Origin: Anaerobacillus arseniciselenatis
GTDB taxonomy: Bacteria > Bacillota > Bacilli > Bacillales > Anaerobacillaceae
DNA: 64,000 nt
NCBI RefSeq assembly: GCF_001865995.1
Contig: NZ_MLQQ01000010.1
Location: forward strand, 156,457-220,456
Direction of reading: 5' to 3'
Below the pieces are notes generated by a model. The model made no database searches and was not told the DNA's origin. It saw nothing but the letters and a program-made list of their open reading frames with translations. A program made the translations under genes and the position numbers. This document shows, in pieces, positions 58 to 42,873 of this stretch. How positions within the stretch are numbered: the first letter of the stretch is position 1; each line of letters opens with the position of its first letter.

Positions 58-215
58 ATGTTTCATACAAAACGAGCATGACGATTTACCGTCACCATCT
101 AATATGGAAAAGGCGGATGATTTCCTTCTCTTCGCTGTAAACTTCTAGCGAATTTTAGAGGCTCGTTCAGGAAATCACTCGTTCTTTTTTCATACAAAAC
201 CTTCATGACGAAGCT
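58..215. repeat. Family A stem-loop repeat, copy 1
   Basis: Starts with TTTCATACAAAACGAGCATG. A small hairpin TGACG (79-83)/CGTCA (90-94) is followed by a 9-bp stem TGATTTCCT (118-126)/AGGAAATCA (169-177). The stem encloses the family core CTTCGCTGTAAACTTCTA and TTTTAGAGGCTCG. A second TTTCATACAAAAC lies at 188-200. The same core recurs near 15.3, 30.5 and 42.8 kb with different stem sequences. Positions 1-57 and 288-486 show nothing I can name. Confidence 0.8.
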
Positions 216-247
216 TTGAAACTATTGTAAAAATTCTCTCATTTTAG

Positions 248-287
248 AAAAAACTCTAAATTTACTATTCTACACAAAAGAGTTTTT
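248..287. terminator. Putative bidirectional terminator
   Basis: Arms AAAAACTCT and AGAGTTTTT are separated by about 21 bases, and the structure has A/T runs on both sides. It could end a gene lying left of the window. No gene in the window needs it. Confidence 0.4.
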
Positions 288-486
288 AACTCAATCAAAG
301 GATTTCTCCCATTAGTGCCGAAAACATACTTATGCTTATTGTTTGTAACAGTCAATTTCATAATGCCAATAAACTAGCCATATCCATCTAGTTGAGGACG
401 ATTTAACTTAAATAACTTAAGCATCTTAGTGTGCCAAATAATGATTATGAGATTTATTAAACTACACAAAAAAGGGGTGCCGAGCT

Positions 487-1665
487 ATGAATATTCGAAA
501 ACTAAAACAAGAAGAAATAGATTTAAGTATCTCTATGTCTGAATTCGCTTTCCAATTAAAACTATCCGAGGAACAACGTCAAAAAAGAAAAGAAACGATT
601 GACCCTAGTAACACTATCGTCGCTACAGAAAATGAAAAAATAATTTCTAAAGTCACTATTCTACCTTTTGAGACGACAATTCAAGGAAAGACATTTTCTA
701 TGGGCGGGGTTTCAGGGGTAGTGACTTGGCCTGAATACCGAAGAAATGGCTTAGTAAAAACGTTATTAAAGAGGAGTTTGGAGGAAATGAAAGATAATGG
801 CCAAACGATTTCTTTTCTTTTTCCGTTCTCGATCTCTTTTTATCGAAAATATGGGTGGGAGATCTTTGCTGATAAAAAGCGAGTTACGTTAACAAAGGCG
901 CAAATCCCTCGTTTTGAGACTCAAAAAGGCTCCATCGAGCGCGTTGCTCCAAACTTCGAATTATTAAACAGTATGTATCAACGTTTTGCTCTCGAATTTA
1001 ACGGCATGCTACTACGTGATAAAAAATGGTGGGAAGATAGGATCTTTGCCAATCTTAAAGGGCAAATTGCGGTCTATTATGATGAACAAAACGAAGCACA
1101 AGGGTATATCGAGTATGATGTAAAAGAACGCAAAATGAAAATATCGGAACTAGTTTACTTAACAACAGCCGCCTGGAAACAACTTTGGAACTTTATTTCT
1201 AACCACGATTCTATGGCTGACACTGTTGAATATACGACATTCAGCAAGGATCCAGCACTATTTTTTATCAATGAGCCACTTGTCGATCAAAATATTGAAC
1301 CTTATTTTATGGCGCGAATTGTTGACGTGAAAGAGTTCCTCTCTATGTATCCATTTGATTTGAAAGATGAAGAAACGATTGTCCTTCACATAGAAGATTC
1401 TTTTTGTAATTGGAATACAGGAACATTTTTCGTAAGTAACAACGAAGTAAAACAGTTCCCAGCATCAAAAGAAGGTGTATCTTGCAGCCATCCTCCTAAA
1501 CGTGGCATTACTTGTTCGGTTCGTAGCTTAGCAGCAATGTTACTAAACTACCAAACCCCTTCAATACTATTACAGTTTGAAGAGATTACAGGAGCAAAAA
1601 AGGAAGTTACTCTACTAGAGAGGGCCATTCCAGGAAAAGATCCGGCATTTTTTGACTTTTTCTAA
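487..1665 (+). CDS. Eis-like GNAT N-acetyltransferase
   Basis: Predicted acetyl-CoA-dependent amine acetyltransferase of the Eis type; the natural substrate cannot be read from sequence. The GNAT domain shows the acetyl-CoA loop WPEYRRNGL at residues 81-89 and FYRKYGWE at 118-125. The C-terminal third corresponds to the SCP2-like domain of Eis proteins. The chain ends in DFF; in characterised Eis enzymes the C-terminal Phe carboxylate and a Tyr are catalytic, which fits this ending. Its 392 residues are close to the family norm. The ATG start has AGGGG about 9 bases upstream. It appears monocistronic and converges with gerQ, the two being separated by a family C hairpin. Confidence 0.8.
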   Translation: MNIRKLKQEEIDLSISMSEFAFQLKLSEEQRQKRKETIDPSNTIVATENEKIISKVTILPFETTIQGKTFSMGGVSGVVTWPEYRRNGLVKTLLKRSLEEMKDNGQTISFLFPFSISFYRKYGWEIFADKKRVTLTKAQIPRFETQKGSIERVAPNFELLNSMYQRFALEFNGMLLRDKKWWEDRIFANLKGQIAVYYDEQNEAQGYIEYDVKERKMKISELVYLTTAAWKQLWNFISNHDSMADTVEYTTFSKDPALFFINEPLVDQNIEPYFMARIVDVKEFLSMYPFDLKDEETIVLHIEDSFCNWNTGTFFVSNNEVKQFPASKEGVSCSHPPKRGITCSVRSLAAMLLNYQTPSILLQFEEITGAKKEVTLLERAIPGKDPAFFDFF

Positions 1666-1675
1666 AGGGTTATTT

Positions 1676-1798
1676 CAAAAATAAAATCGAGCTGTCTCAT
1701 AAACGTCTGACACTAAATAAACTTACTCAATATAGACGGATAAATCCCTTATCCGTCTATATTAGGTGCCTTACACTTTATTTTTGAATAACTCCATT
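1676..1798. repeat. Family C long hairpin, copy 1
   Basis: Outer arms TTTCAAAAATAAA and TTTATTTTTGAA bracket CGTCTGACAC and an inner stem TATAGACGGATAA/TTATCCGTCTATA. It lies between the convergent Eis-like gene and gerQ and probably terminates both. The outer arms differ from the other copies but still pair. Confidence 0.75.
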
Positions 1799-1861
1799 TT
1801 ATTTCTTTATCGAAGAATTAGCGCGCTATAATAATCCTTTTTCCAACTATATTTATGCTTT

Positions 1862-2404
1862 TTAAGCGAAAGGATAATCGTATTCAATTTCTTCATCAAA
1901 CTCAACGTAATCTAAATAAACCATAAGTAATAAATACCTTTGTCCTGTTTGTGGGTCACTTAAAATAATATGGTCACGTCCCGCTGCTTCTATTACTCCT
2001 TCAAAAAGTTGCTGTCTATTGTCATTAACTCTACCTTCAAACGTCATATAAACTCTCGCAATTTTTCCTCGATTTAAGCGGAGGATATTTTCAATATAAG
2101 ACATTTCAAGCGGTAACATTCCTTCAACAGGTACTTGTGGAAGTTGATGAAAAGGTACTCTTCTTCGTGTTGATTGATCAGAGCAACTTCTTGGAGTAGT
2201 TTGACCACTATTATTTCCATTAAAATTTGGTTGTGCGTTTGTAATCGGTTGATTAGTTAATGATTGATTTGTAATTGACTGGCTTGTCGCTGCTTTATTC
2301 GCAACAGGTTGGTTGGCAACAGATTGATTTGCAAAAGTTTGGTTCGCTCCATTTTGATAAGGTTGGTATGATTGATATGGCTGATAATACACTTTATTCG
2401 TCAC
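1862..2404 (-). CDS. gerQ: Spore coat protein GerQ
   Basis: Coat protein needed in B. subtilis for CwlJ localisation and for germination triggered by Ca-dipicolinate, and a substrate of spore transglutaminase. The conserved C-terminal GerQ domain is residues about 85-178, with the stretches LPQVPVEGMLPLEMSYIENI and QTGQRYLLLMVYLDYVEF. The N-terminal 80 residues are low-complexity and rich in Asn/Gln/Tyr, with short repeats of the form NQxxTNQ. Its length of 180 aa is typical. It lies 12 bases downstream of cwlJ on the same strand, the conserved cwlJ-gerQ operon of Bacillus. Confidence 0.92.
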   Translation of the reverse strand: MTNKVYYQPYQSYQPYQNGANQTFANQSVANQPVANKAATSQSITNQSLTNQPITNAQPNFNGNNSGQTTPRSCSDQSTRRRVPFHQLPQVPVEGMLPLEMSYIENILRLNRGKIARVYMTFEGRVNDNRQQLFEGVIEAAGRDHIILSDPQTGQRYLLLMVYLDYVEFDEEIEYDYPFA

Positions 2405-2416
2405 TCCATTCTTTTT

Positions 2417-2848
2417 TTAAAAAGTTCCGTAAACGTCTGGACATTCACCGGCCAACGGTGTATAAAAACAATGCTCTTTATATCTCCCAGAATTCCATTG
2501 CCCCCACCACTGAGCTGGACAAGGACCATCTGGTCGGAAAAACCATAAAGCAAATTCCGCAGGATCATATCGATTACCTTTAATCAATTTATCAACTAAA
2601 CGTAATTCATGTTCCCTTGCACGTTGATAAAAATAACCGTGTAAAACTGCTTCAAACCCTCCAGGAGATTGATACGTCATTTCAGGAATGCTATTAATAT
2701 GTTCAAAGTCTAAGCAAGCCGACCGAACTCGATTCACCATGACATTCCCTGCTTTAAGCATTCCTAAATCCCCTTCACCCTCAGCTTCTGCACGGATTAA
2801 TCTTGCTAACATTTTCCTATCCTTTTGATTTGCTTTAATGACTGCCAT
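2417..2848 (-). CDS. cwlJ: Spore cortex-lytic hydrolase CwlJ
   Basis: SleB/CwlJ-family hydrolase that degrades spore cortex peptidoglycan during germination. The family domain covers almost the whole 143 residues: RAEAEGEGDLGMLKAGNVMV near the N terminus contains the conserved Glu region, and the family Trp-rich segment follows (ALWFFRPDGPCPAQWWGQWN). There is no signal peptide, as expected for CwlJ, which is made in the mother cell, and unlike SleB. The ATG is preceded by GGGGGTGAATAA. Its operon with gerQ matches the known dependence of CwlJ on GerQ. Confidence 0.93.
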   Translation of the reverse strand: MAVIKANQKDRKMLARLIRAEAEGEGDLGMLKAGNVMVNRVRSACLDFEHINSIPEMTYQSPGGFEAVLHGYFYQRAREHELRLVDKLIKGNRYDPAEFALWFFRPDGPCPAQWWGQWNSGRYKEHCFYTPLAGECPDVYGTF

Positions 2849-2933
2849 TTATTCACCCCCAAACTTCAGTTCAATTATAAAATATAGGTTGTTAACTACT
2901 TTTGTGCTAAAATTTCAGAAATTTGGGCTCAAA

Positions 2934-2977
2934 AAAACTAAGGCGCTCACTAGTGTAATTAGTGAGTAACCTTAGTT
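2934..2977. terminator. Bidirectional terminator hairpin
   Basis: AAAACTAAGG and CCTTAGTTTT arms plus an inner CTCACTA/TAGTGAG pair, flanked by A and T runs. It lies downstream of the minus-strand cysteine-cluster operon and just upstream of cwlJ. Confidence 0.8.
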
Positions 2978-2993
2978 TTCGTATATATTTTAT

Positions 2994-3047
2994 TTACTTT
3001 TTGCCACTACCACATGAACACATTTCATTACTTTTCACTATTTTCAT
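2994..3047 (-). CDS. Possible 17-aa SEC-C-like mini-protein
   Basis: A 17-codon ORF, MKIVKSNEMCSCGSGKK, starts at ATG 3047 with a strong GGGAGAGGTGAAGCAG upstream. The end, CSCGSGKK, looks like the first half of a SEC-C zinc motif, whose full form continues with a further Cys pair; here TAA follows directly. It is the last ORF before the terminator at 2934-2977 and follows the cysteine-cluster gene and a 39-aa membrane ORF. It may be a real metal-binding micro-protein or the remnant of a longer SEC-C tail. Only the RBS and the motif support it. Confidence 0.35.
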   Translation of the reverse strand: MKIVKSNEMCSCGSGKK

Positions 3048-3086
3048 CTGCTTCACCTCTCCCAAAAATAACTGGAATACTTTTTC

Positions 3087-3206
3087 CTATTCTTTTTCTG
3101 CGATTTTCTTCACATATTCCTTGATCTCACTGAGTTCACTTTTTGTTTTGACAAGCTCTCTAAATAGTAAAACGACTAAGACGACAAGAATGATATCTAA
3201 GGTCAT
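3087..3206 (-). CDS. 39-aa single-span membrane protein
   Basis: The ORF starts at ATG 3206, immediately after the stop of the upstream cysteine-cluster gene (TAAATG), with AAGGAGAGAG as RBS inside that gene's end. The product begins with a hydrophobic segment (MTLDIILVVLVVLLF) and continues as a charged helix (residues about 16-39, rich in Lys/Glu), a layout seen in small membrane-anchored regulators. I do not recognise a family. The adjacent stop/start suggests translational coupling. Confidence 0.6.
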   Translation of the reverse strand: MTLDIILVVLVVLLFRELVKTKSELSEIKEYVKKIAEKE

Positions 3207-3965
3207 TTATCTCTCTCCTTTTATACGTGGCAATTGTTCTTTTAATAGTCTTGGTAAATAATCGGCTTCGTAAACATCATTAGGTAGATTGATAGGATCA
3301 TTTTCTGTTTCAAAAACGACTTCTTGAATCGTATTCACTAAAGCATACATGTAATATTCATATAAAAATTCATAGCTAAACACCTCATCAGGAATGTCAG
3401 TATCGAAACAAACTTGCGGGTCACAATAATTCAAGTAAGTTCGACAAGAAATCGGTCGCACTTCATACGCCTTACATTTGTTTGTTTTTTTATCTAATAA
3501 TGGACAAGCAACTTGCTTTTGAATATACTTTCTCTTGAAATCGTGATCCGTTTGAAAATCTATGCTATTAATTTGCTCAAGATCTTCCGTTTCGTAATAG
3601 TTTTCAAGGTGTGCGATGAGCTCTTGTTTTTCTTGATCGGGCATTTCCTCGATATATTGAGAGATTAGCTTTGCTTCCATTTTCGTTACAATGATCGGAA
3701 AATAACAGCAATGACTACAACCTTCAAAACAACTCGGCTTCACCTTCACCTTCTCTTCAATCCGCTCAATCTCTTTATCTATGACTGAAAGCTTTCGTTT
3801 AAAAGCTGTACTGACAAATTTATCACGGCTAGCATCTCCATACTGCTCAAACTGATCTTCTATCGCTTGCATAAAGCGGGAATCGTCCGGAATATGCTTG
3901 TCATTAATCTCTTGGCATATTCTCTCCATATCTTTTATCGTTAAAAATTGTTTCAAAACGTCCAC
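3207..3965 (-). CDS. YkgJ-family cysteine-cluster protein
   Basis: Predicted Zn- or Fe-binding protein of the YkgJ (UPF0153/CxxCxxCC) family, of unknown biochemical role. The hallmark cluster is CFEGCSHCC (Cys79, Cys83, Cys86, Cys87). Further Cys lie in CPLLDKKTNKC and RPISCRTYLNYC, the usual second half of the site. The N-terminal 75 residues are mainly helical. At 252 aa it is a longer member of the family. It heads a likely three-gene unit with the 39-aa membrane ORF and the 17-aa SEC-C-like ORF, ending at the hairpin 2934-2977. Confidence 0.8.
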   Translation of the reverse strand: MDVLKQFLTIKDMERICQEINDKHIPDDSRFMQAIEDQFEQYGDASRDKFVSTAFKRKLSVIDKEIERIEEKVKVKPSCFEGCSHCCYFPIIVTKMEAKLISQYIEEMPDQEKQELIAHLENYYETEDLEQINSIDFQTDHDFKRKYIQKQVACPLLDKKTNKCKAYEVRPISCRTYLNYCDPQVCFDTDIPDEVFSYEFLYEYYMYALVNTIQEVVFETENDPINLPNDVYEADYLPRLLKEQLPRIKGER

Positions 3966-4397
3966 TCCTTAATTGTGTTGACTACTATTATTTGAGCTAT
4001 AAAAAACTAACTACTAGCGAGGTCACCTCTAATAATTGACATGACCTATTACGAACTTTCTACAATCTATAGTACTATCTACTAATCGTTTCGCTATTTA
4101 AGCAAAACGTCCACCCTTAATAGTAGAACAATTAGCCGCTAAAATCTACACTTGATGACTAGTGTTTGTTTCCAGATATCCATTTTCGCAAATTCAAGAT
4201 ATTTTACCATTCTCAAGCTGTCATTCGCACCATCACCAACAACATCTGTTGTATTAAGGTGAAAATCAGTTAGGGGGGAAACTGCACGGGATACTCCCCC
4301 ATTGTTCTGTTATCTCCCACTAATTATTATGGCAACTCTTGGTCAACTAACGTAAGCGAACACGTTTTAACAAGAGGTTAGACCGCACTCCCAAATA
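3966..4397. other. Gene-free gap with possible decayed ORF
   Basis: No intact gene. On the minus strand, a frame of about 43 codons within 4138-4272 reads like protein (it contains ANDSLRMVKYLEFAKMDIW) but lacks a start and shows no family I recognise. GGGGG/CCCCC arms near 4274-4302 could form a hairpin. This may be the relic of a lost gene. Confidence 0.3.
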
Positions 4398-5363
4398 TTA
4401 AAAGTGGAGTTCATACTGTCTAAATTTAGTACTGCCGGTATATTTTAAATTCATGGATTTTAATATTCTTGAAGCAGTATAAGGAGAAGGAAGGTGGAGG
4501 AAATTCCTCAATTTTTGGTTAGTAATCGTTTTACCTAGGAGCAAATAATAGTGTTTTAATGAAGGTATATGCGCTTCTTTGGATTCGAATAAACACTTCG
4601 GACAGTACCAACTCCCTTTTTTTCGCTCCATTGGAAGTGCAGAACAATTAGGACAATGTACACCCGTTAAAATTGCACTTTCTGGGACTTTTAATTGCTC
4701 TAATATATCAACTTTTTTAGGCTCGTGACAATTGATCAGATGGTCAGAAAAGGAATCTAAGTCATGGATGATTTTGCGCCTTGTGTTAAACGTCTGTTGT
4801 ATTGAAAGAATTTTTGCGGGTAAGTTATCGGCGAGGTAAACCATCTCTAATGCTTCTTTATAATCTGAAGAAGCTTTAATAATCGTAGTTGGATTGGCAA
4901 TTACCACAAGCGGAATGATTGGTAGGGATGGGAGGTTATTAATATTGAGCCACTTTTTTAATTTTCTTTGCTGATTAATGACTTGAGGTATGGGATTTTC
5001 CATGCCTTCTTCTACTCCGTTTTTTTCTCTAATTAACTGCTTAAAATTACCGTCAAAATATAATGATCCTACATAATTTTTCACTTCAATGATTAGAAGG
5101 CAGTTTGGCGTATTAATTAATATATCGATTTGAAAAAAGTTATCATTTGCGATGCGCAATCTTAAATCATGAAGTATGTGGAAATGGTTGGAGGAGAAAT
5201 CTTTTAAATAATAATCAATCGATTTTTCACCAAAGTAACCTGCCTTCGCTTTACCTAATTCTTGCTCAACTCTAGGACGTTTTACATAATTTTTAGATAA
5301 TCTCAATAAGGCTGCTTCTAAACTTTCAACTTTTAATGGAATTTGTATTGCTTTTTTCATCAT
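4398..5363 (-). CDS. NERD domain protein
   Basis: Nuclease-related-domain (NERD) protein; the fold is related to restriction-type nucleases but the cellular role is unknown. The domain lies at residues about 41-160, with GEKSIDYYL at 45-53 and the putative nuclease core FQIDIL (Asp80) and IIEVKNY (Glu93, Lys95). The C-terminal half has a zinc ribbon, CPNC followed by CPKC about 20 residues later, then a Lys-rich tail. Its 321 aa are typical for Bacillus NERD proteins. It stands alone, with tandem repeats upstream and an empty gap downstream. Confidence 0.8.
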   Translation of the reverse strand: MMKKAIQIPLKVESLEAALLRLSKNYVKRPRVEQELGKAKAGYFGEKSIDYYLKDFSSNHFHILHDLRLRIANDNFFQIDILINTPNCLLIIEVKNYVGSLYFDGNFKQLIREKNGVEEGMENPIPQVINQQRKLKKWLNINNLPSLPIIPLVVIANPTTIIKASSDYKEALEMVYLADNLPAKILSIQQTFNTRRKIIHDLDSFSDHLINCHEPKKVDILEQLKVPESAILTGVHCPNCSALPMERKKGSWYCPKCLFESKEAHIPSLKHYYLLLGKTITNQKLRNFLHLPSPYTASRILKSMNLKYTGSTKFRQYELHF

Positions 5364-5437
5364 AATTAAGTCACCACCTATTTTTTTGCTGATATTATTC
5401 TTTTTTGAGATTAAAATTTCCTGCTTATTTTTTAATT

Positions 5438-5850
5438 TTTTTGCGATTTTTGAATTTTTTTTGCGTTACGTATCTTCTTTCTTGCGATACTCACAGTTTT
5501 TTTGCATGCCTTATTTTAGAGGTGTGCTTTTATTGAGTTAATCGCTTTTTTCTTGCGATTTTCCACTTTTTCTTGCGTTACGCACCTTCTTTCTTGCGAT
5601 TTCCACGTTTCTTTTTGCACAGCTCATTCTAGGGGTATCCATTTATTGAGTTATTCAAAATTTTCTTGCGATTTTCCACTTTCTTCTTGCGTTACGCTCC
5701 TTCTTTCTTGCGATTTCCACAGTTTTTTTGCACAGCTCATTCTAGGGGTATCCATTTATTGAGTTATTCAAAATTTTCTTGCGATTTTCCACTTTCTTCT
5801 TGCCTTACGCTCCTTCTTTCTTGCGATTTCCACAGTTTTTTTGCACGCTT
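5438..5850. repeat. 113-bp tandem repeat array
   Basis: Nearly identical units start at 5532, 5645 and 5758 (period exactly 113), with a more diverged unit before 5532. Each unit contains about four sub-repeats of some 20-28 bp built on CTTGCGATTTCCAC or CTTGCGTTACG. The array sits upstream of the NERD gene and downstream of the ABC-F gene. Two short open frames across it have the same translation in different frames, a by-product of the period. Confidence 0.85.
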
Positions 5851-5877
5851 TTATTAAGTAAGATCTAGAATTTAAAA

Positions 5878-5915
5878 GAGGGCGTCCTCAAAAGCTAAGC
5901 TTTGAGGACGCCCTC
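5878..5915. terminator. Perfect bidirectional hairpin
   Basis: Arms GAGGGCGTCCTCAAAGCT-type pair almost end to end (GAGGGCGTCCTC at 5878-5889, GAGGACGCCCTC at 5904-5915). It lies downstream of the ABC-F gene, next to a second terminator. Confidence 0.7.
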
Positions 5916-5932
5916 TCCAATAGAAAAACCCC

Positions 5933-5951
5933 GGCTAACACCGGGTTTTTC
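5933..5951 (-). terminator. Terminator of the ABC-F gene
   Basis: A small GC-rich hairpin (CCCGGTGTTAGCCGGGG on the minus strand) is followed by a T run, directly after the ABC-F stop codon. Confidence 0.75.
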
Positions 5952-5952
5952 A

Positions 5953-7854: not shown

Positions 7855-7891
7855 GAAACCATTCCCTTGTTCATTCGTATAGTTAGTAACT

Positions 7892-8591: not shown

Positions 8592-8596
8592 GACAT

Positions 8597-15246: not shown

Positions 15247-15575
15247 TCATTTTATTTTCACACAAAACGCAAATGGCGGATATTCCGCCACCATTTAATA
15301 TGGAAAAGAACAAGCAATTTCCCTCTCTTCGCTGTAAATCTACTGACCTCAATCACAACATGGAATACACCCTCGAGAATACTCCATGTGCTTTGCGACG
15401 AGGAACCGCAGGAGCACCTTCTATCGAATCTCAGAGGCTCGTCACGAAATCATTCGCCTTTTTTCATACAAAATCATCATGATGGCTTACCTGCCACCAC
15501 CATCCAACATCAAAAGTCGGACGAGGGTCCTAACCAACTAGCCACTAACCAACAAACCAACTAACAAACCAACTA
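15247..15575. repeat. Family A repeat, copy 2 (longest, with insert)
   Basis: Small hairpin TGGCGGA (15274-15280)/TCCGCCA (15284-15290) is perfect although its sequence differs from copy 1. The core CTTCGCTGTAAA is split from TCAGAGGCTCG by about 100 bases containing another hairpin (ACATGGA/TCCATGT). A second CATACAAAATCATCATG follows, then the heptamer tract CCAACTAGCCACTAACCAAC. The outer stem is weak here (about 5 bp). No gene occurs in 15189-15581. Confidence 0.75.
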
Positions 15576-30487: not shown

Positions 30488-30722
30488 TTTTTTCATACAA
30501 AACGCTCATGGCGATGTATCGTCACCATTTGGCATGTAAAATTGGTGATGGATTTTCTTCCCCTTCGCTATAAACTTCTATCGAATTTTAGAGGCTCGTG
30601 AAAGAAAATCCATCACCAAGTATCTATTTACACACAAAACTGTCATGTCGATATACCCGTCGCCATCTAACATGAAAAGTCGGGTGGGTGTCCCAACCAT
30701 CTAACCAACTAGCCAACTAACC
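30488..30722. repeat. Family A repeat, copy 3 (18-bp perfect stem)
   Basis: TTTTCATACAAAACGCTCATG, with small hairpin TGGCGA/TCGTCA, then an 18-bp perfect stem TTGGTGATGGATTTTCTT (30542-30559) pairing with 30602-30619. The stem encloses the core CTTCGCTATAAACTTCTA and TTTTAGAGGCTCG. It is followed by CACACAAAACTGTCATG and the heptamer tract CCAACTAGCCAACTAACC. Confidence 0.85.
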
Positions 30723-30757
30723 AAAAAAAGAGCCTTTCATCAAAGAAAGAACTCTTA
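30723..30757 (-). terminator. Terminator of yerH/camS
   Basis: Minus strand AAGAGTTCTTTC and GAAAGGCTCTT arms followed by a long T run; it overlaps the stop codon. Confidence 0.85.
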
Positions 30758-34231: not shown

Positions 34232-36475
34232 TTAAGCCTTCGTAATCGGGGCGAATTTGGCTGCAAGACGCTTAATGCCAACTGGTTGTGGAAAGGCAAT
34301 ATCTAATTCGATATTGTCACCTGAACCTTTCGTACTTACTACCGTTCCAACGCCCCACTTCTTATGCTCAGCTTTATCGCCAACTTGCCAACCGAACTGG
34401 TCGCCACCTGTTGTTGTCATTTGCGGACGTGTAGCTGTTGTCGTTCTTTGTCGTTGTTGAGTTGTTATCCCACCACTAGCTGGTGCTTGTCTCGATGTTT
34501 TTGCCCACGCTGGCGCTTCTTTTTGTTCGTTCAACGATTCAATCATTTCACCAGGAATCTCACCAATAAAACGAGACTGCGAATTCGTATTCGTGCGTCC
34601 AAATAATGTCCTCATTTTCGCACAAGATAAAAATAGGCGCTGTTCAGCTCGAGTAATCCCAACATAGGCAAGTCTTCTTTCTTCTTCCATTTCCTCTTCT
34701 TCGAACAAGGAGCGGCTATGAGGGAAAACACCTTCTTCCATACCAATTAAGAATACCACTGGGAATTCTAAACCTTTGGAGGAATGCAAAGTCATTAATA
34801 AAACTCGATCCGTATCCTGCTGTTCTTCTTCATCTTCATCAACTTTGTCAATATCAGCAATAAGCGCTAAATCAGTTAAGAAAGCGACTAACGACTTATC
34901 ATCATTTTTATTTTCAAATTCTTTTGTTACAGATAAAAACTCATCAATATTTTCAAGGCGACTTTGCGCTTCAATTGTTTTTTCATTTTTTAACATATCA
35001 CGATAGCCAGTTTTCTCTAGCAACTCTTCAACAAGTTCGGTAACTGATAAATATTCTTCGAGTTGTACCCAACCTCTAAGTTGATCTATAAAATCAACCA
35101 ACTTATTCGTGGCCCCTTTTGCTAACCCCATCTGTTCGACTTCATGGAGGGCTCGGTACATTGACAGCCCTTGAACAGCCGCAAACTCAGCTATTTTTTC
35201 TACAGTTGTTGCACCAATTCCTCGCTTCGGAACATTAATAATTCTACGTAATGAAATATCATCATCAGGGTTCGCCACAACTCGTAAGTAAGCAAGAAGG
35301 TCTTTAATCTCTTTTCGATCATAGAACTTTGTCCCACCAACAATGTTATAGTTGATATTTGATTTGACGAGTAATTCCTCAATAACACGCGATTGCGCGT
35401 TGGTTCGATATAAAATGGCAATATCGGAAAGTTTATAATCGTGTTCTGTCATTAACTCTTTAATTTTTCCAACAATAAAATAAGCTTCATCATGTTCATT
35501 GTCACCAATATAACAGGAAATATTTTCACCCGATTGATTTTCTGTCCATAAATTTTTCGGCTTCCGATTAAAGTTATTGTTAATGACTTCGTTTGCCGCT
35601 CGAAGAATCGTTTTAGTCGAGCGGTAATTTTGCTCAAGCATAATCGTTGTCGAGCGCGGATAATCTTCTTCAAAGGAAAGAATATTCGTAATATCAGCTC
35701 CACGCCAACGATAAATAGACTGATCAGAATCACCAACTACACAAATATTTTTATAGCGCTCTGCCATCAATTTTACGAGCATATATTGCGCTCGGTTCGT
35801 ATCTTGATACTCGTCAACATGAATGTATTGAAATTTACGCTGATAAAATTCTAACACTTCAGGAACTTGTTTAAACAATTGAATGGTAGTCATAATCAGA
35901 TCATCAAAATCTAAGGAATGGTTTTTACGAAGTTCTTTTTGGTACGCTTCATAAACTTCAGCAACTGTAGATTCATATGGTCCTTTAGCACTCCCTGTAT
36001 ACTCTTTCACCGTTTTTAATTCGTTTTTCGCACTACTAATCGAACCTAATAAGCTTCTCGGTTCAAATTTCTTTGAGTCGATATTTTTTTGCTTTAAAAT
36101 TTGTTTTATTACCGTTAATTGGTCACCTGGATCTAAAATCGTGAAATTACGTTTGACTCCTACGCGATCAATGTCTCTACGTAAAATACGGACACACATT
36201 GAGTGGAATGTCGAAATCCAAATATCCTCTCCAGTTTGTCCGATAATGTTTTTGACACGTTCTTTCATTTCTTTTGCTGCCTTATTCGTAAAAGTAATCG
36301 CTAAAATTGACCAGGGCGCAACTTCTTTTTCACCAATTAAATACGCGATGCGACTTGTAAGTACTCTTGTTTTTCCCGAGCCTGCTCCAGCCATGATTAA
36401 TAAAGCTCCGTCTGTATGCTTGACCGCTTCACGTTGTTGTTCATTTAATCCCGATAATAATTTTTGCATATCCAT
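34232..36475 (-). CDS. pcrA: ATP-dependent DNA helicase PcrA
   Basis: UvrD/PcrA superfamily 1A 3'-5' helicase for repair and for rolling-circle and replication-transcription conflicts. It shows Walker [10 protein letters not shown] near 30, [10 protein letters not shown] (motif II), [16 protein letters not shown] (motif III), [15 protein letters not shown] (motif V) and [11 protein letters not shown] (motif VI). The C-terminal tail (about 655-747) is the Tudor-like RNA polymerase-binding region ending [11 protein letters not shown]. Start at ATG 36475 rather than the upstream in-frame start. 747 aa. Confidence 0.96.
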
Positions 36476-36541
36476 TGTATATCCACCACCAAAACGTATG
36501 TTCTTATTTTTTATTTTAACTAAACTAGCTTGTAAGGGCAA

Positions 36542-37225
36542 CTAAAACTTACATTTAACCGTTTTTAACGCACTTTCAATATCGTCATAAATGACGTTGC
36601 CGACAACAACAGTATCCGCGTATTGTGCGACTTGCTTAGCTTGTTCTATGTTCGTAATACCTCCACCATAAAAAAGTCGTGTCTCATCCAAAGCACCACT
36701 AACTTCTTTCACTATTTCCATATCTCCAAAAACTCCACTATATTCAACATAAAAAATAGGTAGCTTGAACATCTTTTCAGCCATTTCTGCATAAGCAACT
36801 ACATCGTCCCCGTGAAGATCTGTATTTGCCTCTGTTAATGAAGCGACCTTGCTTTCACCGTTAAGAATGCAATAGCCTTCCATAATGATTTCATCCCAAT
36901 TCATAATCGCTCCAAATTCCTTAACCGCTTGATGATGTAAACCCGTGACCCAATTAACAGAGCCGCTATTTAATACCGATGGAATAAAATAATAATCAAA
37001 GCCTGGAGTTATCGTCTCAATCGAAGAAACTTCTAACGCACAAGGAACAGAATACCGCCTCACTCTCACAAGCAAGTCCAATACGTTATCTTCGGTAACC
37101 CCATCACTACCACCAACAATAATGGCATCTGTGCCAGAAACGCAAATTCTTTCTAAGTCGTGATCAGTAATCTCCTTGTTAGGATCTAATTTAAAAACGT
37201 GCTTCCACTCATTATATTCAAGCAT
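36542..37225 (-). CDS. pcrB: Heptaprenylglyceryl phosphate synthase PcrB
   Basis: TIM-barrel prenyltransferase that joins heptaprenyl diphosphate to glycerol-1-phosphate, making an archaeal-type ether lipid in Bacillus. Family stretches are [12 protein letters not shown] at the N terminus, [17 protein letters not shown] near 42, [10 protein letters not shown] and [14 protein letters not shown] near the phosphate site. 227 aa. Start ATG 37225 with AAGGGGC; the longer frame to 37261 lacks an RBS. 66 bp before pcrA in the conserved operon. Confidence 0.94.
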
Positions 37226-37383
37226 TTTAAAGCCCCTTTTTTTAGAAATGCGCCAGCGCATTAATATTTCATCATATCCTCATTCGGTTATTATATCAAA
37301 AAAAACATACACTCTCACTATTACAATTGGTGGAATTAAAAAACTGTGTCACATTACTTATGTTAGACACAGTTCCAAAAAAT

Positions 37384-37950
37384 TCAAGCAATATTTTTTT
37401 CATTATGGTGATCGTTAATTTGGGGAATTTCTACAACTTCATAAAGCTGTTCAATGGTGATAAAGTTTACCTTTTTGCTTATTCTAACCTTTGAAACTTC
37501 CTGTTCAGTTGTTGTAGGAGATTGATTGTTTCTTATATTTAAACTTTCATTTAATACAAGACGTTGAATATTATTTAATTTAGGAGTAGCGTCGGAGTTT
37601 TTAACATTGTTAGAGGTTGGTTCGGTGACCGTTTCAAGTTGGAATGGAGCTGTCTCTCCTAAAGCTATCATCCAAATCGAGACTGACCACTGTAGTTCTT
37701 TTTTTAAGCGCCAATTTTTTTTAATTACCTTTTCAAGTGCTAATGGTATTTCTTTTGCGTTAATCTCTTTTGCATAAAACAGATCGATCAATTGCTTTTT
37801 TACAAGAATAAGGGCTTGTATTTCTCGTTGTTCCCCATACAAACTATTTAGTAGTTCCTCCAACTTACTGGCATCACACCACTCATACCCGTACTTCTCC
37901 ACTAAAGAAATTACAGTGTTACCAACATACCGATTTATAATCACCACCAC
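37384..37950 (-). CDS. Hypothetical helical protein
   Basis: 188-aa soluble protein I cannot assign. The first 95 residues (VISLVEKYGYEWCDASKLEE, then LLNSLYGEQREIQALILVKK and ELQWSVSIWMIALG) resemble a helical module that I recall beside chaperone-like or multi-domain bacterial proteins: KYG..CD...L..LL..L......EI.ALI...W....ALG. The C-terminal half is low-complexity, rich in Asn, Thr and Glu. It sits upstream of pcrB, with 158 bp between, at the border of the region not shared with the B. subtilis order. The start lacks a strong RBS. Confidence 0.55.
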   Translation of the reverse strand: MVVIINRYVGNTVISLVEKYGYEWCDASKLEELLNSLYGEQREIQALILVKKQLIDLFYAKEINAKEIPLALEKVIKKNWRLKKELQWSVSIWMIALGETAPFQLETVTEPTSNNVKNSDATPKLNNIQRLVLNESLNIRNNQSPTTTEQEVSKVRISKKVNFITIEQLYEVVEIPQINDHHNEKNIA

Positions 37951-38082
37951 CCTTGCACAATATATATAAATTATAACTGACTTTTAACAGAATTTATTAA
38001 AGATTTTAACTTTTTAATAAATTCGTAATATAACATTCACTTAAATGTTATATGTCCACCTTTTTTGAAATTAATCAAAATA

Positions 38083-38122
38083 AAAAAACTAGCTGCCTTA
38101 TTAAAAGTAAGCTAGTTTTTTT
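38083..38122. terminator. Terminator between LysM and hypothetical genes
   Basis: AAAAAACTAGCT and AGCTAGTTTTTT arms with an imperfect middle, just downstream of the LysM gene. Confidence 0.8.
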
Positions 38123-38138
38123 ACATTGCTAATTTTAC

Positions 38139-38576
38139 TTAATAACCCCAGTGGTTAGGTTGATAATATGGCGCTTGATAGCGTTGGTGTAATTCATGAA
38201 CCGCTTGTTGTGGTGGGTGTTGACCATAATGCGGATATTGTGGATAAATTGGTGCTTGCTCAAAATCCTTATGCTGATAATGAGTTCCATTTATCGGCTG
38301 TGTATAGTCTTGTGAAGGCCAATGTTGAATGTCTAACTTTTTGTACTGAACGGGTTCATCAGCCACATAAGCACAAACATTTCCTTTTCCATCTAGCTCA
38401 TCAACCATAAGTCCCTCTAATCCAATAATCGAAGGAATTTTTATTTGCATTCCTTCATGAAGGTTCGTCGGATCTTGAATATGTTGGTTATGACTAAAAA
38501 GTACATTAATGTCGATTTGATAACGGTGAGCTACTTGATATAATGTTTCCCCTTTTTTCGTAATATGAATTTTCAA
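38139..38576 (-). CDS. LysM-domain protein, spore type
   Basis: 145-aa protein with an N-terminal LysM domain (about 1-48: IHITKKGETLYQVAHRYQID, then MQIKIP) binding peptidoglycan-like glycans. A Tyr/Pro/Gln/His-rich tail (about 90-145) typical of Bacillus spore coat or morphogenetic proteins such as SafA-like members follows. It lacks a signal peptide, fitting mother-cell coat assembly. Start is TTG 38576, with AGGAGG upstream; the longer open frame has no RBS. Divergent from the gerP-like cluster. Confidence 0.75.
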   Translation of the reverse strand: MKIHITKKGETLYQVAHRYQIDINVLFSHNQHIQDPTNLHEGMQIKIPSIIGLEGLMVDELDGKGNVCAYVADEPVQYKKLDIQHWPSQDYTQPINGTHYQHKDFEQAPIYPQYPHYGQHPPQQAVHELHQRYQAPYYQPNHWGY

Positions 38577-38730
38577 TTTTATTAACCTCCTAAAACGATT
38601 TCGTTTACATAACAATATATATTTATGCAACATTTGGGTATTTGCTATTACATTTTATCTCTGCGTGCATATTGGGCTTTTTCATTACTTAAGAACTTTA
38701 AGGAAACTGTATCATCCCCTATTTTTATTT

Positions 38731-38739
38731 CATACGATA
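38731..38739 (+). promoter_or_regulatory. Possible sporulation sigma -10 element
   Basis: CATACGATA 30 bp upstream of the first gerP-like gene matches the -10 pattern of mother-cell sigma factors (SigK/SigE). No convincing -35 partner was found. Confidence 0.35.
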
Positions 38740-38769
38740 TGTGTATAGGACAGAAAATGGGAGGAAATT

Positions 38770-38994
38770 ATGTTGACACATATGAACAATATCCTTGGGA
38801 TTCGGATAAACAGCGCTTCTTCTAATGCTTCGATGAACTTTGGTAATGTCGTGCATAAAGGTCACCAAGCAAACGTCAAAATGAATGTTGGCTATGCTCA
38901 AGCTGGGGACGCAAACTTCTCGCCATTACAATTTAATAATGCTAATTTAACGAATGATCCTGATGTGCTTGACCAACCACAAGCACAAATTTAA
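38770..38994 (+). CDS. GerPA/GerPF-family spore protein 1
   Basis: 74-aa member of the GerPA/GerPF family, small coat-associated proteins that help nutrient germinants cross the coat. Family features: RINSASSNASMNFGN, a Gly/Asn-rich middle, and NDPDVLDQPQAQI at the end (the usual D-DQ ending). ATG with GGAGG. It is about 75-80% identical to the next gene by eye, indicating a recent tandem duplication, and is followed by a third diverged copy and gerPC. Confidence 0.8.
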   Translation: MLTHMNNILGIRINSASSNASMNFGNVVHKGHQANVKMNVGYAQAGDANFSPLQFNNANLTNDPDVLDQPQAQI

Positions 38995-39014
38995 AGCTAG
39001 TTTAGGAGGTTTTT

Positions 39015-39242
39015 ATGATACCGACTCATATTAATAATATTCTTGGAATCAGAATCAATGGCGCATCTTCTAACGCTTCAATGAATTTTGGTAATTCGAT
39101 ATTAAAAGGGTTCCAAGGGAACGTAAAGTCAAATGTTGGTTACTTGCAACCAGGGGATGCAAACTTCTCACCATTACAATTTAATAACGCTAACTTAACG
39201 AATGATCCTGATGTCCTTGATCAGCCTCAATCACAAATTTAA
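39015..39242 (+). CDS. GerPA/GerPF-family spore protein 2
   Basis: 75-aa tandem paralogue of the preceding gene, sharing NNILGIRIN, SSNASMNFGN, GDANFSPLQFNNANLTNDPD and VLDQPQ. Differences are concentrated in the middle (SILKGFQGNVKSNVGYLQPG). AGGAGG precedes the ATG, and the gap to the upstream copy is 20 bp, so the two are co-transcribed. Confidence 0.8.
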   Translation: MIPTHINNILGIRINGASSNASMNFGNSILKGFQGNVKSNVGYLQPGDANFSPLQFNNANLTNDPDVLDQPQSQI

Positions 39243-39286
39243 TTAACAACGGCAAATCCAAGTATAATTTTTAGGAGAGAAAAATT

Positions 39287-39523
39287 ATGCAAATTAACAT
39301 TAGAAATATCCGGATAAATTCGATTAGTACTATTGGTTCATTAAATATTGGGAAAACCGTTTTCAGTGATAATCAGGCCTCAAGCGCCCAATTCCCTAAA
39401 CCAAATTATGAAGAAACTGAACCTGAAAACGAAGACAATAATGAAAATGAACAAAATAATAATGATGGCGAAAATATTGAATTTCAGCCACCGATGGATG
39501 CCCCACCAATTTATATTCCTTAG
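39287..39523 (+). CDS. GerP-like protein 3 with acidic tail
   Basis: 78-aa protein whose first 30 residues (INIRNIRINSISTIGSLNIG) match the start of the two upstream paralogues, while the rest is an Asn/Glu-rich acidic tail ending in a Pro-rich stretch (FQPPMDAPPIYIP). It may be a GerPB-like or diverged GerPA-family protein. ATG with AGGAGAG. It precedes a terminator. Confidence 0.65.
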   Translation: MQINIRNIRINSISTIGSLNIGKTVFSDNQASSAQFPKPNYEETEPENEDNNENEQNNNDGENIEFQPPMDAPPIYIP

Positions 39524-39528
39524 TATGT

Positions 39529-39578
39529 CATAGCACTACTAGTTAGCCGTTAGGTTAAAAAGTAGTGCTTTTTTTATT
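39529..39578 (+). terminator. Terminator after the three GerP-like genes
   Basis: AGCACTACT and AGTAGTGCT arms followed by a T run. gerPC lies beyond it and may have its own promoter. Confidence 0.8.
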
Positions 39579-39674
39579 TCCGCTATAGCCTGAAGCACTG
39601 CTAAAAAAACATGAACACTTAGAGCCCATTTTTCATAGTGTATTAAAGGTTGTTATTAAGGAGGCGGATTTTAT

Positions 39675-40214
39675 ATGTATTATTATCAATGGCCTTATCA
39701 GTATTGTTATCAGCAGCCATATTACTATTGTAACTATCCATATTCCAATTATTATATTGAGCCTGCGAACGGCGAACAATGGATGAATGCTGATCAATAT
39801 GTTGATTATTACTATGACGAAACTGCTACTAAAGCAAATTATAATGCGAAAAATGAAAATAAGGAGAACAACAACTTCAATGTAAATGACATTCCTCAAC
39901 TTAATGGAGTACAACATTTTATACCTAAAGTGATGCAAACCCTTGAAAGCATACAACAAAAAATGAAAGAAATAGAAGAAGAAAATGAAAATTTAAAAGA
40001 AAAGATTAAAGATATAAAACCGATTAACATTGAAAATATTAATTACAAAATTCAAGAGCTAACAGTTGAAGAATTATCAGGGGCATTAAATATCGGCTTA
40101 AGTGCATTGACAGATGCTGAGAACTTGAAGAAATTACTTAATGAAAACGGAGAAATCAAATTCAATGACCTAGATACGAATATGGAAGAAAACTTTGAGG
40201 AAATGGATGGGTGA
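39675..40214 (+). CDS. gerPC: GerPC-type spore germination protein
   Basis: 179-aa protein with a Tyr-rich N terminus (YYYQWPYQYCYQQPYYYCNY), a Glu/Lys coiled coil (about 90-120), and the GerPC hallmark INIENINYKIQELTVEEL followed by SGALNIGLSAL. GerPC is required in B. subtilis for germinant permeability through the coat. The linker is rich in Asn. RBS AAGGAGG. The gerPABCDEF operon is not complete here; D, E and standard B were not found. Confidence 0.75.
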   Translation: MYYYQWPYQYCYQQPYYYCNYPYSNYYIEPANGEQWMNADQYVDYYYDETATKANYNAKNENKENNNFNVNDIPQLNGVQHFIPKVMQTLESIQQKMKEIEEENENLKEKIKDIKPINIENINYKIQELTVEELSGALNIGLSALTDAENLKKLLNENGEIKFNDLDTNMEENFEEMDG

Positions 40215-40240
40215 CAAGAAAAGCGTAAGCGCCTTGGGCA
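40215..40240. repeat. CAAGAAAAGCG repeat after gerPC
   Basis: CAAGAAAAGCGTAAGCGCCT begins directly after the TGA stop of gerPC, as the related copy does after mqnD. Confidence 0.6.
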
Positions 40241-40256
40241 GGTCCAAATAAAAACT

Positions 40257-40287
40257 GGAGCCTTTCACCAAAAGGCGCCTTTTTGTC
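40257..40287 (+). terminator. Terminator after gerPC
   Basis: GGAGCCTTT and AAAGGCGCC arms followed by T residues. Confidence 0.75.
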
Positions 40288-40361
40288 TTTTTGGGAAGGT
40301 CAAATAAAACAATGGGGTTGTCCTAAACGATAGTACTTGTTTTTGGGCACCCCTCTTTTAT

Positions 40362-41195
40362 TTATAATTTAATTTGTTGGACGTTTATTAACTTATGTAA
40401 TAATCTTGCTGCTTCTTGTTCATTTTTCGGTAAATTTTCTACGTTTAAGTTCGGAACCATTCGAAATAACCTGGCGATTCTCGGGAGGTGAAGATTTGAT
40501 TTTCTAATCCACTCTTCATCCGTTAGTAACTCCGGACCACCGCTAGCTAAAAGTTGACCGTCTTTCATTAAAATGATCATATCAGCCCAAGATACGGCAA
40601 AATCTACATCATGTGTTGATAATAATACGGTTTTCCCCATAAAACTTAATCCTTGAAGTAGAGCAGCCACTTCATCTTGTCCTTGTGGATCGAGATAAGA
40701 CATTGGCTCGTCTAAAATGACAATGTCAGGCTTCATCGCAAGGATCCCAGCAATAGCTACTCGCTTTTTTTGACCGTAACTTAATTGATAAGGTGCTCTT
40801 GATTTAAACTCCAGCATTCCTACAGAGCCTAAAGCAACATTACAAACTTCCTCAATTTCTTCTTCAGAAAGCCCAAGGTTTCTAGGTCCAAATTGTACAT
40901 CTTCCCAAACCGTTCCTGATATTACTTGATCATCTGGATCTTGAAACACTAGTCCAACTTTTTGGCGAATTGCTTTCGCACTTTTTTTATTTAACGGAAC
41001 CCCCATAATTGATACCGAACCATTTTGTGGTAGCTTCAAACCATTTAAATGATGTAATAACGTCGATTTGCCAGCTCCATTAGGACCAAGTAAAGCGACT
41101 TTTGCTCCTACCGGTATTTGTAATGAGATATCACTAATCGCCGGCGTCATATCTGGATAACTGTAAGTAACATTTTCAATGTGTACCGCTTGCAA
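40362..41195 (-). CDS. cbiO: Orphan cobalt/nickel ECF ATPase CbiO
   Basis: ATP-binding subunit of an ECF importer, cobalt/nickel type. Walker A is GPNGAGKST near 38, Q-loop VGLVFQDPDDQV, signature LSYGQKKRVAIAG, and Walker B IVILDEPMSYLDP; the H-loop is STHDVDFA. The C-terminal part resembles CbiO rather than the EcfA1/A2 pair of shared vitamin importers. 277 aa. Start is TTG 41195 with AAAGGAGG. No S or T subunit is nearby; the cbiM-nikL-nikK-cbiQ genes at 8.8-11.7 kb lack an ATPase and are the obvious partner. It lies downstream of a ureohydrolase with a family C hairpin between. Confidence 0.85.
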   Translation of the reverse strand: MQAVHIENVTYSYPDMTPAISDISLQIPVGAKVALLGPNGAGKSTLLHHLNGLKLPQNGSVSIMGVPLNKKSAKAIRQKVGLVFQDPDDQVISGTVWEDVQFGPRNLGLSEEEIEEVCNVALGSVGMLEFKSRAPYQLSYGQKKRVAIAGILAMKPDIVILDEPMSYLDPQGQDEVAALLQGLSFMGKTVLLSTHDVDFAVSWADMIILMKDGQLLASGGPELLTDEEWIRKSNLHLPRIARLFRMVPNLNVENLPKNEQEAARLLHKLINVQQIKL

Positions 41196-41209
41196 GTAGA
41201 TTCCTCCTT

Positions 41210-41283
41210 TTTGGGTGTCTGACACCCTCCGTGGACATTTGGTGATTTTGTCCTCCTGAGGTGGACACCTCAGAAGGACAAAC
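41210..41283. repeat. Family C variant between ureohydrolase and cbiO
   Basis: GTGTCTGACACC at 41216-41227, then GTCCTCCTGAGG and CCTCAGAAGGAC arms. The hairpin could terminate or attenuate transcription into cbiO. Confidence 0.7.
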
Positions 41284-41286
41284 TAA

Positions 41287-42447
41287 CTATGAAAATTTCT
41301 TCCCTAACTTCCCTGCATCAACCATTGATGCTAAAACGTCACAGATAATACGTGTACCAAGTAATGCGGTCTGGTCACTTACGTCATATGGTGGGGATAC
41401 TTCTACTAATTCCATGCCACATATCCCTTCTCTAGCTACAATATCTAAAAACTTCAAACCTTCTCTCGGTGTAAATCCACCTGGTTCAGGCCACCCAGTA
41501 CCAGGTACAAAACCAGCATCAAAGCTGTCAATATCGACACTTAAGTAGACTGCTTTCGCACCGCCTTGCCACGCTTTTTCTAAAGCAATTTCGGCTACTT
41601 TTTCAATTCCCAGCTTTTCAACATCATCGATGGAAATTGCTGTTGTATTAAACTTCCTTACATTTTGAACGGCCTCGCGAGGAACTTGCCAGCCACCTAT
41701 TCCGACTTGAACTAAGTTTTCAGGTGGGGCATTAGGAATGTTTGTCGCATGGAACCAAGGAGTAGTGTGCATACGCTCATCCATATCTTTTTCTTGCAAA
41801 TCAAGATGGCGGTCCATATGAATAATTCCAACCTTGCCATCCACGTGTTCAGCAATCGCTCGTAAACATGGATAACCGATGGCATGGTCCCCACCTAGCA
41901 TTACCGGTAATGTCCCTTGTTTAAATACGTGGGAAACAGCTTTAAAAATTTGATCAAAACTTTTTTCAATATTAGCAATCGTAAACACGTCACCTACATC
42001 ACACATGTTTAATGACTCCACTAGATCGACACCTTTTTCATAACTGTAACTAGTGTATAACTTAGAAATTCTTCGCATTGCCTCGGGTCCAAAACGAGCA
42101 CCCGCTCTGTAGGTCGTTCCAATATCAAAAGGAACACCCATAAATGCAACGTCATATTCACCTACTCTTCGAACGTCTTCTAAAAACGGCGTTCGCAAGA
42201 ATGTAGGTATTCCCGCATAAGCAGGCCTTGGCTCCCTAGTAAACGTGGAAATTGTTCGATCACCAATTGAAGGAGCTGCTTCCAGTCCATACTTTAACGA
42301 CCTTTTTAAAATTTTCTGATTTTCAACTTCAGGAATTTTTGCTTCCTTCTCAGCTTGCTCAATTCCTAGTAAATCAGTCGTTCGGTCGCTTTCGAGGGCT
42401 TTTTTCTTTCTAAAGCTTAGTCCGTGATTATCGAAAAAACCCAACAT
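41287..42447 (-). CDS. Ureohydrolase-family enzyme, possible guanidine hydrolase
   Basis: Arginase/agmatinase-family metallohydrolase, 386 aa, with a 90-residue N-terminal extension. All six metal ligands are present: His188 (GGDHAIGYP), Asp212, His214, Asp216 (MDRHLDL, Arg in place of the usual Ala), Asp305 and Asp307 (SVDIDSFDAGF). The loop GTGWPEPGG (316-324) differs from the agmatinase GTGTPE-type loop and recalls the Ni2+-dependent guanidine hydrolase GdmH of Synechocystis. That substrate is an inference; agmatine or guanidinobutyrate remain possible. No speA/speE or guanidine riboswitch is adjacent. ATG with AAAAGGATG. Confidence 0.7.
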   Translation of the reverse strand: MLGFFDNHGLSFRKKKALESDRTTDLLGIEQAEKEAKIPEVENQKILKRSLKYGLEAAPSIGDRTISTFTREPRPAYAGIPTFLRTPFLEDVRRVGEYDVAFMGVPFDIGTTYRAGARFGPEAMRRISKLYTSYSYEKGVDLVESLNMCDVGDVFTIANIEKSFDQIFKAVSHVFKQGTLPVMLGGDHAIGYPCLRAIAEHVDGKVGIIHMDRHLDLQEKDMDERMHTTPWFHATNIPNAPPENLVQVGIGGWQVPREAVQNVRKFNTTAISIDDVEKLGIEKVAEIALEKAWQGGAKAVYLSVDIDSFDAGFVPGTGWPEPGGFTPREGLKFLDIVAREGICGMELVEVSPPYDVSDQTALLGTRIICDVLASMVDAGKLGKKFS

Positions 42448-42598
42448 GTATCACATCCTTTTCTCTTCATTTAGATGTACTTCATGCTGTCATTAGGCAG
42501 AGTTAGGAGCACATACTAACAATATATGTATTCAATCATTTGTAAATAAATGCCTATAAAAAAGATTTTTTTTGTAAAAGAAAAGCCTATTTTGGGAT

Positions 42599-42873
42599 AG
42601 TTGGTTAGTGGTTTGTTGGTTTGTTGGTTTGTGGTTGGCTGAAAGTTGGAAAAAACAAGGAGGCGTCAGTGAACGTGTCCGCCGCCTCTTTTCACCTTAG
42701 GTGATAACGATGTTCATCATCGGTTTGTATGATAAAAGAATGCTCGGTCGCTTTTCTGGAGCGAGCCTCTAAAATTCGATAGAAGTTTACAGCGAAGCGA
42801 GAGGAAAGCGACCGACACTTTCATTCAAGATGGTGATGAGATATCGTCATGAACATTTTGTATGAAAAAAGGT
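42599..42873. repeat. Family A repeat, copy 4 (inverted)
   Basis: Reverse orientation. Heptamer tract GGTTAGTGGTTTGTTGG at the left, then a 14-base stem TCGGTCGCTTTTCT (42744-42757)/AGGAAAGCGACCGA (42802-42815) with one mismatch around the core. Small hairpin TGATGA/TCGTCA, and GTTCATACAAAA-type ends. It fills the gap upstream of the ureohydrolase. Confidence 0.82.

Follow-up and report, generated by a model that had tools for sequence, protein, structure and literature searches.

A modular repeat of hairpin cassettes

The window, a stretch of 64,000 nucleotides within contig C10 of the genome here called G000 (58 contigs, 3.95 Mb, 80% complete), carries five copies of a dispersed repeat composed of short hairpin modules, which recurs elsewhere in G000 and is the subject of this analysis. 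The host genus is taken as Anaerobacillus; all 20 stretches matched in a genome collection, which may omit the records of G000 itself, led to SKSA01, a metagenome-assembled genome of Anaerobacillus sp. The anatomy of the repeat was read from 69 core sites, a few of which (e.g. L002) resemble chance matches inside genes, and from about 1.2 Mb of G000. The core pattern itself (CTTCGCTRTAAA) is not a product of chance, since it occurs 69 times in G000 versus 4 times for the reversed pattern.

Arrays follow the plan R-[M hairpin + S hairpin]-R-..., often closing with M and a CCAACTAACC tail. The direct repeat R is 14 bp long (TTTTCATACAAAAC). The M hairpin (about 51 nucleotides) begins with R, forms a small hairpin around CATGACG....CGTCACCATC and has the 3' end ATGNAAAA. 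The S hairpin (about 80 nucleotides) has a variable outer stem of up to 18-20 bp, a short inner stem with a TANC loop, and a conserved internal loop that reads CTTCGCTG / GAGGCTCG on the strand used by the preliminary description of this DNA (hereafter the described strand) and GAACGAGC / AGCGAAGNGA on its complement. The next R comes after S, and arrays often finish with M followed by sequence of the type GTCGGGCG...CCTAACCAACTAACCAAC. Within contig C1, 200 kb of contig C40 and the window, R-like DNA lies just 3' of 93 of the 118 S cores that lack the nested module X described below (random windows, 9.5%), M lies just 5' of 80 of them (random, 0.9%), and 78 have both. When 198 cassettes were cut between R copies, 115 consisted of M-S, 30 of M-S with X, 23 of M-tail, 16 of M alone and 12 of S alone, with 2 others.

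The preliminary description had reported four dispersed copies with a shared loop core and unrelated stems that nevertheless pair, and all four copies were found in place (Table 1). The conserved loop of a dispersed repeat stands, but the core is not continuous in every copy: in copy 2 the 80-nucleotide X separates CTTCGCTGTAAA from TTCTATCG, and the 3' half of the core is TCTCAGAGGCTCG. Pairing is as claimed in copies 3 and 4, with a perfect outer stem of 18 bp in copy 3, but copies 1 and 2 have unlike arms; the arms of copy 1 belong to different stem types (left, GGCGGATG...; right, ...ACTCGTTC), and it therefore pairs over only about 9 bp.

Table 1. Copies of the repeat in the window and related features (window positions unless a contig is given)
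Feature	Location	Strand	Composition	Remarks
Copy 1	60-200	+	R 60-73, M 60-110, S 108-187, next R 187-200	R1 match over S, complementary strand, 91.4 bits
Copy 2	15255-15575	+	R 15255, M, S with unlike arms and X, R 15461, M, tail CCAACTAGCC...CCAACT	
X module	15339-15418	+		in the S loop of copy 2
Copy 3	30490-30725	+	R 30490, M, S 30541-30620, R 30627, M, tail	R1 match over S, 80.0 bits
Copy 4	42599-42868	-	R 42855-42868, M, S 42739-42820, R 42722, M, tail down to 42599	R1 match over S, 80.1 bits
Fifth copy	about 61738-61855	+	R, M, tail, terminal R	S-less; absent from the preliminary description
33-bp tandem runs of GCGACGAGTAAYCGCAGGAGCA	G000 C1:815097-815215, C40:16095-16213, C2:109502-109620			

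X is nested in about one fifth of cassettes and is a separate repeat, its 3' part being found at 95 places in G000; X-like DNA is present in five congeners (matches in G001-G005), and X is a relative of a genus-wide repeat. The 33-bp tandem runs of GCGACGAGTAAYCGCAGGAGCA plus spacer are identical in sequence to the 3' portion of X. No autonomous, gene-carrying copy of the cassette repeat was recognized among the 44 open reading frames (ORFs) of more than 300 bp between R pairs, which, judged by eye, resemble housekeeping genes; the repeat thus sits in the gaps between such genes. Beyond the fifth copy, a purine riboswitch, 5S rRNA and the end of the large-subunit rRNA are located at 62071-62172 and 63523-64000 on the minus strand of the window.

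Covariation in the hairpin stems

The complementarity between the two arms of the same S hairpin, averaged over 114 S, is 13.3, versus 7.6 when arms are swapped among copies (maximum of 2000 shuffles, 8.6). S was aligned in a gap-free 80-nucleotide register (89 rows, 77 distinct), outside which stand the S hairpins with X or with a 17-nucleotide inner part. Among the 77 distinct sequences, none of 1000 shuffles reaches the observed value at 14 of the 22 outer pairs and at 3 of the 7 inner ones. The changes GGTGATGG/CCATCACC, GGAGGTGG/CCACCTCC and GGCGGTGG/CCACCGCC are plainly compensatory. A counting tool was then applied after re-alignment by MAFFT, which shifted some rows by one column and lowered their pairing: paired cells amount to 84.3% versus 74.1% in shuffled data, cells changed on both sides to 239 versus 81.9, and the covariation score to 0.364 versus 0.194 (at most 0.190 when the structure is slid), each reached by 0 of 500 shuffles, while the 18 pairs changed on both sides were reached by 11 of 500 and the 52 further pair types by 2 of 500; relatedness of the copies, which fall into only 12 left-arm types, inflates such counts. 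RNAalifold predicted zero pairs from a plain MAFFT alignment of 95 whole cassettes (20 of the 115 M-S cassettes having been dropped for length or a piece boundary), because unlike arms were misaligned.

Nine of the 114 S pair poorly with themselves although the left arm pairs well with the right arm of another copy. Reading showed that seven of these nine combine arms of unlike types, suggesting recombination in the loop, and that the other two look decayed; copy 1 of the window, outside the nine, likewise has unlike outer arms.

The second hairpin, M, had also been said to vary in a paired manner, and its sixth pair bears this out: among 129 M it is GC in 39, AT in 38 and TA in 7, the other 45 being unpaired or wobble. 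The variable position of the outer M stem (TTTNCAT/ATGNAAA) shows no covariation, and that helix is unproven. Two outcomes named beforehand as damaging to the preliminary description, loss of covariation as copies were added and stems that prove to be random flanking duplications, did not occur.

Turnover between sister genomes

G006, a sister genome of G000 (same genus by label; 62% complete), shares with it long syntenic stretches of approximately 75-93% DNA identity. Of 23 orthologous repeat sites, 12 were scored as G000-only, 3 as G006-only and 8 as present in both; seven of the eight shared sites were read, and the cassettes differ in all seven. At C1:804146 the difference is a single M-S cassette between R copies, gained or lost, and at C1:654524 cassettes that differ between the genomes terminate at a common R. 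The gaps read were 21 that differ in size; contigs of G006 often end in S, so that assembly collapse may hide some copies. Arrays that differ between sister genomes behave as mobile DNA does.

Other repeats were encountered in these comparisons. A second family, roughly 130 bp long, has inverted ends (GTGAATTTCATAAT ... ATTATGAAATTCAC; for example L112:4991-5135 on C1 of G000, and many places in G001-G006); it occurs in each of the seven genus genomes searched and is polymorphic between G000 and G006. A third type (GCGCCATCGGCTCGACCACTTCAGACC...GGTCTAAAACC, G000 C40:43722-43905) is inserted in G000 and missing in G006, and DNA similar to it follows two of the 33-bp tandem runs.

Distribution and relatives

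A covariance model of the S hairpin (R1) was built, as the preliminary description had proposed a model of the repeat, and used to search genomes. It finds at least 150 S in G000, a lower bound given that all 150 candidates scored, 83 in G006, 2 in G004 and none in four other congeners. Under stricter filters, six of 299 genomes of the order are positive: G000, G006, G004, G178 (E value 1.3e-9), G129 (1.1e-5) and G008 (3e-4). The match in G008 (L282) is without the loop motif and is probably a terminator. Occurrence is thus patchy, and a second model, R2, found S in one of four species of the genus of G178.

The G004 loci are an R-M-S-R array (L279) and a divergent S (L410). In L280 (G178) and L281 (G129) the outer and inner stems are wholly different and the internal loop is the same, and just upstream of S in each there is a piece like the 3' end of M (ACAACCTAGTATGAGAA and ACAACCCTAAATATAAAA, respectively). 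The internal loop of S is thus common to single divergent hairpins in another Anaerobacillus and in two other genera. The S of L280 lies between a flavin mononucleotide (FMN) riboswitch and an apparent ribD, with the described strand in the sense of the mRNA, which argues against a uniform RNA orientation.

The loop pattern GAACGAGCN{10,38}AGCGAAGNGA is present in 13 of the 397 genomes searched, of which 10 lie outside the genus. Among 14 distinct places read outside the genus, a flanking stem is found in two (L290 and L291, scores 14 and 13; 95th percentile of cross-pairs, 6.0), and the remainder, without such a stem, look like chance. Viral contigs hold 97 stretches with the pattern, and one of the 85 distinct places read has a weak stem (score 9): in the IMG/VR contig L345 (3327-3379) a stem of 9 bp, GTATGGTGC / GCACCATAC, encloses the loop motif, a case that may be a relative or may be due to chance. 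In three other IMG/VR contigs (L314, L379 and L391), tandem TCGAACGAGCGAAGCGA-like repeats hold the loop motif by composition. Copy 3, the sole query used against plasmid and phage records, had no match there.

That no named family corresponds to the repeat, as first suggested, agrees with Rfam 15, which has no match over any copy (whole window at gathering scores; positions 1-43500 up to E 1) and, at L279-L282 up to E 0.1, matches only the FMN riboswitch near the S of L280. No description of the repeat was found in the literature, judged by titles and the beginnings of abstracts.

Strand asymmetry and gene orientation

Mismatches in the S stem are unevenly divided between the strands. In the 86 distinct well-paired S, the described strand has 58 A:C cells in 41 contexts versus 10 G:T cells in 7 contexts (p 6e-7, the contexts being not fully independent). 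An A:C mismatch on the described strand is a G.U wobble on its complement, and the tests therefore single out the complementary strand, which is the usual transcript strand and, by GC skew, likely the lagging-strand template. M mismatches show no strand preference (28 A:C, 28 G:T).

The elements are mostly intergenic (9 of 110 midpoints lie inside an ORF of 80 aa or more) and mostly point opposite to the genes. With ORFs called mechanically, plus and minus orientations number 58:8 where both neighbouring genes are on the minus strand and 3:6 where both are on the plus strand (Fisher p 0.0009); in convergent or divergent gaps the plus orientation is still ahead, 22:11 (p 0.08). Change in S that is both compensatory and strand-asymmetric suggests structural selection on one strand.

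Nature of the repeat

The preliminary description had proposed a structured RNA or a hairpin-recognized mobile element. Covariation persists, here in 77-114 copies, and arrays differ between sister genomes. The evidence favours the mobile element. On balance, the repeat is likely, by a small margin, a non-autonomous, mobile hairpin-cassette repeat resembling BOX and BIME, in which S is predicted to be a structure read on one DNA strand by an enzyme. A recombinase or transposase supplied in trans would move the cassettes, recognizing S, alone or together with M, on one strand, and gain and loss would take place at R. In transcribed gaps S would also fold in the mRNA, and may be tolerated mainly in the orientation that places GAACGAGC...AGCGAAG in the transcript. 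RAYT/Y1 proteins were considered as movers and find no support: G000, at its stated completeness, has no Y1 gene, and the single one of G006 (L246) has no repeat motif within 3.3 kb, while five congeners have 2-17 PF01797 members.

Several observations weigh against mobility. No mobilizing gene was found in a search for Y1 (PF01797; 0 in G000, 1 in G006), integrases not having been searched for. None of the sites read clearly shows a target duplication or a clean empty site, and the outgroup gaps at L085 are too diverged to tell insertion from excision. At least four sites scored as G000-only have a trace or edge copy in G006 (L066, L085, L225/584347 and L230), and L074 adjoins other copies, so that absence does not always mean an empty site; the array-less site at L085/C40:51430 retains one TTTTACATAC, which may be a target or a trace of excision. 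A terminal R follows only 22 of 73 tails, versus 14 of 365 random windows. Both assemblies are incomplete, and the gene-orientation bias fits an RNA role equally well.

A bolder version of the mobile reading, which we consider rather unlikely, is a new class of mobile cassette, in which a dedicated recombinase recognizes a hairpin with two GA-rich internal loops and inserts, removes or exchanges cassettes at a short direct repeat. If this were true, chromosomes would carry integron-like arrays of gene-less hairpins, and the hairpin would be old enough to have kept its loop, but not its stems, across genera.

The most serious alternative, itself doubtful, is that S is a cis-acting RNA useful to the host, co-transcribed with the upstream gene and folding as a long hairpin that contains two GA-rich internal loops (GA/GA and GA/GAA), its dispersal being secondary; such an S would likely bind a protein or block exonucleases. 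The wobble asymmetry in favour of the usually transcribed strand, the orientation bias between co-directional genes and the retention of the loop across genera while the stems change all agree with this, as do the RNA folds of copy 3 (z -7.28), copy 4 (z -3.99), L280 and L281, which are far better than those of shuffled sequences (z -4.0 to -8.9). Copy 4 and L279-L281 fold into an outer stem, a GA-rich loop, 2 bp, a GA/GAA loop, 2 bp and an inner stem, and copy 3 has the same plan with one middle pair. However, copy 1 folds otherwise, and neither it nor L279 has an unusual fold (z -1.94 and -1.53). An RNA role is also at odds with the turnover of cassettes between sister genomes, the patchy distribution, the persistence of copies with unlike arms, the lack of wobble asymmetry in M, the lead of one orientation in convergent and divergent gaps, which transcription does not explain, and the ribD mRNA of L280, whose sense is that of the described strand and not of the predicted one.

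It is improbable that the asymmetry and the covariation are by-products of a few ancestral hairpin types that were duplicated by ordinary recombination and are degenerating through strand-biased mutation, neither recognition nor selection being involved. The small number of left-arm types would suit this explanation, as would the near balance of mismatches when all 114 S are counted without a pairing cut-off (107 A:C versus 90 G:T cells, poorly paired and unlike arms included), and transcription-linked mutation may be a source of the asymmetry. Yet a sample of one copy from each of the 12 types still scores 12.2 versus 7.0, and compensatory differences exist within types: in the five types with at least 13 copies, own pairing is above all within-type shuffles in four and above 97% of them in one, while two types of four copies each show no such effect. 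The A:C excess is kept in the leading-oriented copies of G000 (6 cells versus 0, in only ten copies), which speaks against replication-linked mutation alone, and the distant hairpins keep the loop and not the stems.

That the hairpins are intrinsic terminators spreading without specific recognition is very improbable despite the A4 and T4-6 runs that flank S stems, as their median distance to gene starts (140 bp) is close to that to gene ends (158 bp) and termination has no need of the conserved internal loop, inner stem, M hairpin or R.

Comparison with known repeats

The mobile hairpin-cassette repeat proposed here is similar in architecture to BOX of Streptococcus pneumoniae, which PMC3049150 describes as composite intergenic hairpin modules in the fixed order boxA-boxBn-boxC, thought to be parasitic, likely to affect co-transcribed genes, and with about half of the insertions shared by all strains. 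A fixed module order with a variable number of middle modules is seen here also (one to several M-S before the tail), and the comparison concerns architecture, not the sequences of boxA, boxB and boxC. Unlike BOX, the cassettes are bounded by R, a covarying stem surrounds a conserved loop, X is nested within, and the sister species share few sites.

RAYT systems are strand-specific, which is one likeness to the present repeat. REP/BIME palindromes are described (PMC3733652) as small high-copy intergenic hairpins in mosaic with other motifs, and this applies to the present repeat as well. It differs from them in having no linked RAYT and in the length of S (80 nucleotides versus 20-40 for REP). 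As for the unpaired GTAG/CGTC tag at one end of REP palindromes, reading found CGTC in M, paired with GACG, and no constant GTAG beside S. The terminal inverted repeats of miniature inverted-repeat transposable elements (MITEs) are likewise lacking, both ends seen being direct copies of R; the repeat lacks the defining features of REP and MITE that were tested.

Among Bacillales repeats, bcr1 is interspersed and has traits of a mobile element, and is not known to form cassette arrays. It belongs to the Bacillus cereus group and is cited in PMC2267715. The comparison is drawn from its description, not its sequence: the present repeat is likewise interspersed in Bacillales, but forms cassette arrays.

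The attC arrays of integrons consist of tandem cassettes with hairpin sites and a short repeated site between them, gained and lost singly. The arrays of G000 resemble these in their tandem hairpin cassettes separated by a short repeat, but the cassettes are gene-less and no integrase was identified, none having been searched for. In our best reading, the repeat is new in both sequence and architecture. It adds to these systems a modular repeat of very high copy number, with high numbers so far in two genomes only; its loop, conserved in divergent hairpins of other genera, offers a concrete way to identify the protein that reads it, and in the two sister genomes the gain and loss of hairpin cassettes can be followed.

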